Positions 134 through 7,925 of a stretch of 64,000 bases of DNA are shown here, piece by piece. The notes below the pieces were generated by a model that was not told the origin of the DNA, searched no databases, and saw only the letters and a program-made list of their open reading frames with translations. Source of the stretch: Strigops habroptila (taxonomy: Eukaryota > Chordata > Aves > Psittaciformes > Psittacidae); contig NC_044289.2 in the NCBI RefSeq assembly GCF_004027225.2, forward strand, positions 10,953,761 to 11,017,760, given 5' to 3'. The position numbers and the translations under genes were made by a program. Each line of letters starts with the position of its first letter. Positions within the stretch are counted from its first letter, which is position 1.

Positions 134-250
134 CCAGCTGTGTCAACTCTCAGCTTTTTGAATGCTGTCTGCAGGCTTTCCTCTTCTCCATCCTTAGCTT
201 CCGTTTTCATTATTGGGATGGCCAGAAGATGTCAGAGTTACCATGTACTG
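134..250 (-). CDS. OSER1: OSER1, first coding exon (partial gene, rest off the left edge)
   Basis: On the minus strand a pyrimidine-rich tract ending in AG (252-251) is followed by a 40-nt leader, an ATG at 210-208, 77 coding nt, and a consensus gtaagt donor (133-128). The peptide starts [19 protein letters not shown] and continues LRVDTAG. From memory it differs from human OSER1 at about three of 26 residues. The exon ends in phase 2, like the matching exon of the plus-strand copy. OSER1 is a serine-rich protein (DUF776 family) induced by oxidative stress. The minus orientation next to a plus-strand GDAP1L1 matches the human arrangement, so this is probably the ancestral copy. Exons coding for the remaining roughly 265 residues would lie left of position 1, so whether the gene is intact cannot be judged here. 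Confidence 0.88.
194..244 (-). promoter_or_regulatory. Upstream ORF overlapping the minus-strand OSER1 start
   Basis: An ATG at 244-242 in the leader of the first coding exon opens a 16-codon frame that ends in TAA at 196-194, after the main ATG at 210. It lies 34 nt before the main start and has T at -3 and G at +4, a moderate context. It would be translated only if this exon carries the 5' leader as inferred. The plus-strand copy has an upstream ATG at the same spacing. Confidence 0.5.
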
Positions 251-1299
251 CTACAAGCAGAAAAAAAGGCACATGAAAATAAGAACCAACACATTGTTAA
301 AAACATTAGTTGCCCAGCAGCACCATAATACATGAAAATAAACTCGAAATAGCACGCTGAGCACATAAAGCTGAGGTCATTCTAGCTGAACATTTTTGAA
401 AGTTGATTCAGAACAAGTTTATGATACCCAAGAACAGAACAATCAGTCTCTTGTACAACTGCACAGGTGAATTAGCAATTTAAAGTTAAATTTGGTGTCA
501 GTAGCATCTTGTCCCTCCATTACAGTCCAGACTCTTCTATTAATCTTCCAGTGTTACCAAAATAATTCCAGAAGAGGTGAAAGGCAGAAGGAACACCACT
601 GTTAGAAACAGTCAACTTTCTACAGCTGCTATTTCCAGCTTTGGGACTTGATGTTACATATATTAAAAACCCCAAACCAACAGATTTTACTTAAAACAAG
701 ATAAAAATTAAACAAAATATATTGATCTTATGTCTAGATCCCAGCAAGGGCTACACAACCCTATCAGAACATGGCATTGTGATTGCAAATAGCCATTAAA
801 ATTTTCTGATACCAGCTCTTGAACAAGTAAAAATGCCAATAAGGCACAAACAGCAAAGAATGAGCCTTGTTTTAAATAAAAAAATGAACTGACAAAAACT
901 GGCTGATGTTTCTTTTTTTTAATCTACCCTTGCCATCATTTAATCTAGGAATCTCAAACTGTTCTAAATTGGATGCTCCTCATTGCCTTACAGTTCTGCA
1001 ATCCTACAGTTCTGCACATGCTACACCAGCCACGCTTCAGATGAAAAAGCACTCAATAATGGTTTGCTTCCTTTGTTTTTGCTGAGCAGAAACCACTGAC
1101 AACAACAAGCCTCAGTTCTAGTCCAAACTACCTCAAGCTCAGTACCTGTTGAAGTTTACCTGGCTGATTAACCTGCTTTTGGACTTGACTACTTCTGGAA
1201 AAACAGGGCCATTTGGGGTGAGTGCCATTACTGCAAGAGCCTTTGGCCACACTCTCTGGGTTGTGACAAGATCAGCTCCTCTCTATTATTAAATTGCAA

Positions 1300-4802: not shown

Positions 4803-7800
4803 ATGGACTTGGAAGCTAAAGATGAAGAGGAAGAGAGTCTGCAAACGGCTTTCAAAAAGCTGAGAGTGGATGCGGCGGGGTGAGTGAAAGCACCGTGTCG
4901 CGTGTCAGCGTCTTTTGTATTTGGCTTCTAGTGTTTTGCATCGCAAAACAAATGTCGTTTGGCAGAAGGTTCCTTACTCTCCCAGAGGAGACTACTGCAT
5001 TCATGCTTCAGATGGAATGCAGTCATTGCAATTATTAGGCAAAGCAGTACTTTATTACTGGCTAATTTTAACATGATAGCTAACTGAAATTACACAATGA
5101 CTGCGTAAAATGACTTGCCCAAAGCAGTAAACCCACTCCTAACTGTTGTGGCAGCCATAGTGATATAGAAGTTGTTTGGCCACAGGTGTCTTCAGCCGCG
5201 TTATCAGCCTCTACTATAGTGGGTGAAGATTTGCTTGGGGAGCATCCACAGGACAGCACAGGACTTCAGGGTGTGCTGGGGAGCCCAGTCCCACTGGAAA
5301 TCATCAGGCTAAATATGAGCACTGACCGCTTACGATTTCAGGGGATTTTGTAGAGTCAATCATCTACAAACTTTCTTATACTAAAAAGCTATTCTGTGAC
5401 ACACCAGTTATACTGATAATACGGAGTACAAGTATCTTCCTTAAAAGTAGGAGTTAATAAAACTATGCAGTCTAACATTTTGTGGGATAGTTCACTTGAA
5501 GTCTTTTGGGAATTCACAAAGAAAGCTTTGTATCGATAATTTATGTTACCTTGTGAATTCATCTTCACAGACATCAGTACTGCAAACTCATGACTTCCTC
5601 TGCATGCTAAAGTACATTTTGCTTTGCTACTCATTTCTTCTACTTCAGGAGGTCTTCTGTTAAATGTGGGGAAAAAACAGCTGTGCTCTAACAAGGAACT
5701 ACTTATTAAGCATACCACTTTTGATGTACTACCAGTGACAGACTGTGTGGAATTCTGGTTGATTCCTGATGACATCTTCTTAGGCATAAGAAGATCTTGT
5801 TTTGCAGGCATGTGTTTTGACCAGCTCAAGTCTTGTAACTAATCTCTTAAGATCAACTTTGGGCAGAGTACTTGGGCTCTTCTGCTAGAATTTCAGCTTT
5901 ATTTCTTATGATTTCCCATCCCATGTTCCAAATCACAATACAGCATCGTAAATGCAGATTCGTGTGCTGAGGCATTTAGGTTGTCTGGACCTCCTGAGCA
6001 TGTTTATCTGGGAAATTTAATGAGAAATAAATTGGTAATCTGTTCTGTCTGTTGTACCTTATCCATTTCTCCACTGACTCCTCCTCAGGCTGCTGCTATG
6101 GGTTCCCAGCTTTGCATTTTAGATGAGTAGGAATCTATCTTTAACAACTATTGTTGGACAAGAACATTTGGAACCTGAGTTTACATTCCTTTAATGTGTC
6201 ATTTTGGTACAAATAGGGCATGACATCAGCCTCTGGGCGTTTTGGCCTCCTGTCATTTCATCTCACCTATCTTTAGACACTTCACTGAGGTCAGTATAGT
6301 AAGAGTGGTTAGAGAAATCTGTAATATCCCGTTTCTAACCAACAAGGGGAAGCCAAGGCTCCAAACTGCAAATGTCTTAGCAAAGCATCTAAAGTGAATA
6401 GGCTGAATCTAGTCCTCCAAAGTGTCGTGTTCAGGCATTACTATAACGTGGCATTCCCCTTTTTACACAGATGTATTGCAGCTCTGTCTGTGGGTGACGG
6501 GACGATGCTGAGAACACCAAGAGCAGCTGTGGATGGAGCCAAGCAACAGACTGTCTGCTCAAAGGAAGTGTGGCACGGGTAAAACACCTTTCAATGCGCC
6601 ATGCTTGTGTTTCTGGTTTGAGACATTTAACACTTGAATACTGTTTCCAGTGCATGTTGTTGTTAATTAGTTGCTTCAACAGATCTCTCCTTTCATTACA
6701 AAACTTTACCATAACTGTTTGATATGGTGTTTTTTAAGATGATTTCAACAAAGACTTTAAAAAACAATATTACCTCTTAGAGAGGGTACCTAAAACTTTC
6801 TTGTCCACTGATTTCCTCAGAAGTCCTTTTGTTCAAGCCTTATGCCTTTGCAACCTCCTCTCACCTCTTTCTTGGGTTATTTTATTTCTGTACTGAAGAA
6901 CCTGGATATTCAGGATTCTGCCAGCAGCTCCAATGGATATCCAGGTTCTGCACTACAATTCAGTTGGGATGACAGAGTATCATTTGCTTAACAGAAAAGA
7001 TTTGTGGGGGAAGTACCTTTAAATAAGGGCTCTTTGTATGTGTCTTCTTTGGGGGAGCTCAGATTTCTTCAGCCTTCTCCGCTGTTCCTGTCAGAGACGA
7101 TGGGTGACCAGTCACCTGAGATTTCTAAGCAGAAAAGGAAAAAAACATATTCTAATACATTTTTAGCCACAGTTTGGAGCTTATTGAGCTAGGTGTAGAG
7201 TCTGGAGTTACCAACTTGCTCGCCTGTTACCACCCTGCAGGTGTGTGAGAAAGCCTTCCAGAGGATCAGCCAGAGTTCCGCGTCGCAGGCGCTCCAAGTC
7301 TCCCGTCCTGCATCCTCCCAAGTTCACTTATTGCAATACGAAAGCCAACAACCAGCTGAAACACAAAACCCAAGCAGACATGTCGAAGGGTGGCATCAGC
7401 TCAGACATTTTTGTCCCAGCAGAACACGGTACGAAGGACAGGCACGATTCTCACTTTGAGGCCAGTGATGACAAAACTGAACCTTTGGAAGCTTTCACCG
7501 CTGAAGAGCCTTTGGAGAAGTCAAGAGAGAATTGTCCTACTCTCTCCTCATCCTTTGAGACTAGCTTGCATTCTAGCCAAACCTCAGATTTCCAGTCCTT
7601 ATCCATGCTTAGCAATGGCAAGCAGTGCCCTTGTACGGACAAGAAATGCCAGTGCAAACAGTGGCGAACCATGGAAGTGTACTCCTTCTCTGGCTTACGG
7701 AGCGTCCTGTCGGAGTGCGAGAAGGCAGTCCTAGGAGTCCACAGCCAGTCTCTTCAGAATAGATCCCCTTGTGGGACAGCCTCATCAAGTTCTCCTAGGT

Positions 7801-7925
7801 CTTGTTCTGAGCAAGCTCGAGCCTTTGTGGATGACGTGACTATTGAAGATCTCTCGGGATACATGGAATTCTACTTATATATTCCCAAGAAGATGTCTCA
7901 TATGGCAGAAATGATGTATACTTGA
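4803..7925 (+). CDS. OSER1: OSER1-like second copy, complete three-coding-exon gene (289 aa)
   Basis: Coding exons are 4803-4879 (exon begins 4759), 6471-6578 and 7241-7925; all introns are GT/AG and all coding junctions are phase 2. The protein starts [19 protein letters not shown]. It has a basic [13 protein letters not shown] stretch (residues 76-88), a serine-rich middle, a cysteine cluster [10 protein letters not shown] (191-200), and the strongly conserved C-terminal block from [18 protein letters not shown] (about 250) to MAEMMYT at the end. Human OSER1 is about 292 aa, so the length fits. The family is nuclear-associated, induced by peroxide and linked to FOXO-driven stress resistance; no catalytic domain is known. 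Retained introns show duplication at DNA level, not retroposition. It is the paralogue of the minus-strand OSER1 at the left edge. Nothing suggests decay. Confidence 0.9.

Follow-up and report, generated by a model that had tools for sequence, protein, structure and literature searches.

Bidirectional promoters in CpG islands typically have a short GC-rich core with ETS- and NRF1-like sites, from which the first exons of two genes point outwards. Mammals are not known to have more than one OSER1 gene. In the human genome, JPH2, OSER1, OSER1-DT, GDAP1L1 and FITM2 follow one another, and OSER1-DT, also called OSER1-AS1, is presumably transcribed away from OSER1, starting at the promoter of that gene and heading for GDAP1L1. 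One report lists OSER1-DT as 'OSER1 divergent transcript', gene 100505783 on human chromosome 20 (PMC9706709). Two others state that OSER1, a FOXO target, increases lifespan and resistance to oxidative stress (PMC13404206, PMC13232014), and link it to the expression of catalase and Sod1, to glutathione and to resistance against peroxide (PMC13232014, PMC13404206). Induction by oxidative stress or an antioxidant role is described for OSER1 in three reports (PMC13232014, PMC13404206, PMC5390468), in one of which a transcript called OSER1 is down-regulated in broiler jejunum (PMC5390468); this transcript could come from either of the two copies described here.

We analysed a window of 64,000 nucleotides from the kakapo, Strigops habroptila (C13:10953761-11017760, where C13 is contig NC_044289.2), together with the sequence to its left. 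Besides OSER1 on the minus strand, this locus carries a plus-strand paralogue, here named OSER1L. The two genes are intact, have common intron phases, share one CpG island and evolve under purifying selection, with no other copy found in the searches described below. We consider it very probable that OSER1 and OSER1L form a pair produced by an ancient inverted duplication and transcribed divergently from one CpG-island promoter.

Gene structure, family membership and neighbourhood

In the original prediction, positions 250-134 of the minus strand were read as an intact OSER1 first coding exon, and positions 4803-7925 of the plus strand as a full OSER1 gene with the same intron phases. Both readings proved correct (Table 1). 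The minus-strand exon has its leader, its ATG and its GTAAGT donor, and an acceptor ends at 251, directly before it. Leftward extension, which had been proposed as a way to find exons 3 and 4, recovered both of them in frame and completed an 879-nt frame of 292 aa (coding nt 77/114/688) with no internal stop. A lone-exon remnant is, therefore, ruled out, the missing coding exons being present left of the window. The OSER1L frame comprises 870 nt and 289 aa (coding nt 77/108/685), is open throughout and ends in TGA, and the four GT/AG borders between its coding exons are all intact. Its exon 2 would begin at 4759, judging from the AG at 4757-4758, and its start codon has a T at -3. The last exon encodes a basic RRRRSKSP block, a CxCxxxxCxC cluster and the conserved C-terminus.

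Table 1. Features of the OSER1/OSER1L locus. Positions are those of the window unless prefixed by C13.
Feature	Position	Strand	Details
OSER1 exon 4	C13:10951271-10950584	minus	688 nt, stop TGA, left of the window
OSER1 exon 3	C13:10952136-10952023	minus	114 nt, left of the window
OSER1 first coding exon	250-134	minus	leader 250-211, ATG 210-208, 77 coding nt, donor GTAAGT
OSER1 leader upstream ORF	244-194	minus	16 codons, overlaps the main start
OSER1 putative first intron	251-4221	minus	donor GTGAGT at 4221 to acceptor TTTTTTTCTGCTTGTAG; predicted from the sequence
CpG island	3801-4800		between both genes, about 1 kb; GC 0.69-0.85, CpG o/e 0.81-1.04 (200-bp steps)
Predicted core of a bidirectional promoter, including the non-coding first exons of the two genes	4222-4417		placed from the sequence
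OSER1L exon 2	4759-4879	plus	ATG 4803, coding 4803-4879 (77 nt), donor GTGAGT
OSER1L leader upstream ORF	4769-4792	plus	7 codons, closed
OSER1L exon 3	6471-6578	plus	108 nt, between two phase-2 introns
OSER1L last coding exon	7241-7925	plus	685 nt, stop TGA 7923-7925
OSER1L poly(A) signal AATAAA	8052-8057	plus	downstream of the gene
FITM2-like exon	35455-36198	minus	Pfam FIT 3.1e-18

When these two copies of one genome are compared, the two introns between the coding exons are in phase 2, lie within a Gly codon and occupy the same positions in the minus and plus genes. Since the intron phases are common to both copies, a retrocopy is ruled out; the shared intron positions and phases and the head-to-head orientation of the genes bear out the DNA-level inverted duplication that had been proposed.

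Both proteins match Pfam DUF776 (PF05604), which we take to be the family of OSER1, over model positions 1-178 of 180, with 240.5 bits for the minus protein and 188.7 bits for the plus protein (curated cut-off, 25 bits). In a tblastn search of the window, the minus protein matched the three plus exons with E values of 2e-62, 4e-8 and 7e-5 and the minus exon with 5e-11, whereas the other six matches had E values of at least 3.2 and the best of 11 in the reversed window reached 1.1. The similarity between the two genes is thus beyond chance. Searches of the whole assembly (1,148,577,936 bases in 89 contigs) returned four matches for the plus protein (12 candidates scored), four for the minus protein (11) and five for the family model (9). 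Every one of them is an exon of minus or plus OSER1, and no third copy was found in the genome among the best candidates scored with both proteins and the family model. A search of viral contigs gave no match, and a 20-residue match in an Oscillospiraceae MAG, obtained in a genome-contig search, was treated as spurious.

We also compared both copies with a provisional sequence of human OSER1. All seven cysteines of this human sequence, including those of CxCxxxxCxC, are present in both copies. Common to plus, minus and provisional human are 34 letters of protein sequence, the CxCxxxxCxC cysteines and most of the C-terminus, and the conserved C-terminal block, which lies outside the Pfam model, is present in both copies.

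The neighbouring genes agree with one conserved locus. To the left of minus OSER1, MORN-repeat exons on the minus strand (C13:10946191 and 10938286, two of the 11 MORN matches in the genome) are what we would expect of JPH2. A GDAP1-family gene lies on the plus strand to the right of OSER1L, recognised by Pfam GST_N_2 and by PDB GDAP1 chains (best E 6.5e-48); its last exon falls in the ORF at 24973-25416, where GST_C matches are sub-threshold. The FITM2-like exon also has a sub-threshold PAP2 match. The plus-strand ORF at 52336-52800, which had no Pfam match at 0.01, may, judged by eye, encode the beginning of a secreted protein of the R3HDML type. Relative to the human order, the minus gene stands at the place of human OSER1 and the plus gene where the divergent transcript runs.

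The CpG island between the genes

A single CpG island common to both genes, as claimed in the original prediction, extends over about 3801-4800. Within it, candidate first-exon donors face outwards, one on the minus strand at 4221 and one on the plus strand at 4418, 197 bp apart, and the interval between them contains ETS- and NRF1-like sites, with CCGGAAG at 4269, the NRF1-like GCGCGTGCGC at 4334 and ACTTCCTG at 4366. The counts expected for these motifs come from shuffles in which CpG content was not kept. As a donor scan also picked up donor-like sites on the minus strand at 3857 and 3865, the placement of the first exons is uncertain. Bidirectional pairs are defined by start sites that lie within 1 kb of each other inside a CpG island; here, there is an island and the predicted outward donors are 197 bp apart. 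The layout is that of a bidirectional promoter and suggests transcription in both directions. The putative first intron of minus OSER1 also contains what we take, by eye, to be CR1-like LINE fragments, at about 1280-2390 and 3050-3640.

The only exact ARE/MARE-like TGACTCAGCA of the window lies in the island, at 4110-4119 (as TGCTGAGTCAC, 4109-4119). Shuffling gave 0.24 expected exact matches, with at least one in 20 of 100 shuffles. Allowing up to one mismatch, there are four ARE/MARE-like sites against 1.9 expected from shuffling, at least four being reached in 11 of 100 shuffles, so that these sites are not clearly enriched. As the exact site was spotted before testing, we regard it as only a lead. 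Neither the FOXO consensus (RTAAAYA) nor a CCAAT box was found in 3750-4900, and the lack of the former lends no support to control of both genes by FOXO.

Inside the island, nothing that clearly marks an inverted duplicate was found. The only pair reported there, of 28 nt and 75% identity, is probably due to chance in such GC-rich DNA; an inverted-repeat promoter was rejected on this ground, and duplication of the promoter is something that we infer and do not see. In both leaders, the main ATG is preceded, at a distance of exactly 34 nt, by an upstream ATG, which is slight evidence that the leaders, too, are homologous. The paired upstream ORFs that begin there may possibly represent conserved translational control.

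Divergence, age and proposed function of the pair

The plus and minus proteins are identical at 165 of 281 positions (59%). Over these 281 codons, the NG86 method gave a near-saturated dS of 1.71 (several segments have saturated dS) and a dN of 0.31, and the resulting ratio of 0.18 is an average over the plus and minus lineages. The bootstrap range of pN/pS was 0.31-0.46, and none of 1000 replicates reached 1. The plus copy had been predicted to keep the conserved C-terminal block, and it does so under a purifying pattern: over the final 42 codons, 41 residues are shared with the minus copy, and synonymous changes (15) outnumber non-synonymous ones (2; neutral probability 8e-9, from site counts). 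Judging from the low dN/dS and this C-terminal identity, both copies have been retained as proteins after an old duplication.

When the DNA of the two sides was compared (window 4222-9000 against C13:10944000 to window 4221), five matches were obtained at E <= 0.01, at coding exons, and no similarity was found that reached further than a few bases beyond the coding exons. This confinement to coding exons, the protein identity of 59% and the near-saturated dS all point to an old duplication. There is no sign of recent gene conversion, the longest exact coding run common to both copies being 17 nt.

The extent of this divergence also weighs against an assembly artefact, in which haplotypes or misplaced contigs would have been joined head to head. 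No sign in its favour was found: copies that differ this much in protein and are near saturation at synonymous sites are not haplotypes, there is no N in the window or in C13:10934000-10953760, C13 is a contig of 16.5 Mb, and the flanking genes stand in the human order. We, therefore, hold an assembly or haplotype error to be very unlikely and discard it on the divergence of the copies and their neighbours. That OSER1L is a recently dead gene, or a non-coding one that only marks a divergent transcript, is somewhat easier to entertain, given the weak -3 context of its start codon and the upstream ORF in its leader. It is nevertheless improbable, since the 289-codon frame, the four GT/AG borders and the poly(A) signal are all intact and the changes between the copies follow a strong purifying pattern.

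Identity to the provisional human OSER1 sequence is 201/291 for the minus copy and 165/282 for the plus copy, and the likely orthologue of the one human gene is the minus copy. In the three-way alignment, from which 19 further gapped columns were left out, 146 columns are identical and all three sequences differ in 46; the plus copy is set apart in 51, human in 19 and the minus copy in 19. Between the two copies, the plus copy is thus the faster-evolving one. Because the alignment comprises only three sequences, none of them an outgroup, any branching order read from these counts depends on a clock. The equal private counts of the minus copy and human speak for a duplication no later than the split of birds and mammals, given the clock and the provisional human sequence. 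If so, the second copy was lost on the line to mammals, which we find the likelier framing.

A duplication within the bird or archosaur lineage, followed by fast evolution of the plus copy and with nothing lost in mammals, seems to us rather unlikely, though it carries real weight. The excess of private differences in the plus copy is what such an acceleration would leave, three sequences cannot root a tree, and a reptile-stem origin at 250 Myr still gives P = 0.11 for the observed 19/38 under a clock and with the provisional human sequence. However, a bird origin predicts that columns in which plus and minus agree against human should far outnumber those in which plus and human agree against minus, and these counts are equal; with the duplication placed midway along the lineage of birds, P falls to 0.0008 on the same two assumptions. 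A dS near saturation and the absence of any intron, promoter or UTR similarity found between the copies argue against it as well. The pair that had been predicted as avian is real, while its restriction to birds is perhaps too narrow, as the two copies probably separated long before birds arose.

We propose that an ancient DNA-level inverted duplication gave rise to OSER1 on the minus strand and OSER1L on the plus strand, and that both genes would be divergently transcribed from the CpG-island promoter, with a core of about 200 bp. Since this promoter is common to both genes, they may be co-regulated, and one promoter would then switch both on together, for instance under oxidative stress. The conserved blocks common to both proteins suggest overlapping function; OSER1L would most likely do the same kind of work as OSER1, that of a serine-rich antioxidant-response effector. 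An OSER1-type protein is probably largely unstructured, and the stretches common to plus, minus and provisional human probably carry the activity, while copy-specific linkers may set differences in partners or expression.

Comparison with known systems

In family, length, block order and cysteine pattern, both copies resemble the provisional human OSER1 sequence, and the pair lies in the same JPH2 / GDAP1L1 / FITM2 neighbourhood as the human locus. OSER1L adds one more member to a family already described, its arrangement is of a known type, and among the literature matches listed, no title concerned a second OSER1 in birds. In contrast to mammals, which are not known to have more than one copy, the locus has a second intact copy, placed head to head with the first. 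The interest of the pair lies in its age, its likely loss in mammals and a possible link to OSER1-DT. If our reading is correct, a duplicated OSER1 that mammals lack is present in animals known for combining long lives with high metabolic rates.

OSER1L occupies the place through which human OSER1-DT / OSER1-AS1 presumably runs. The name and map position of the human transcript indicate this course; it is annotated as a long non-coding RNA, whereas OSER1L is a protein-coding frame. One tentative idea, which we offer as speculative, is that OSER1-DT is the relic of a second protein-coding OSER1. The pair would then be ancestral to amniotes; birds would have kept both genes, while in the lineage leading to mammals the frame of the partner would have been lost but its promoter retained, its transcript persisting as a long non-coding RNA. 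The locus is, in this respect, a concrete test case for whether a human divergent long non-coding RNA descended from a lost protein-coding gene.

In its short GC-rich core, its ETS- and NRF1-like sites and its predicted outward first exons, the locus is like other bidirectional CpG-island promoters. Unlike the usual divergent pairs, its two genes are paralogous, so that promoter and genes may have been duplicated as one inverted unit.
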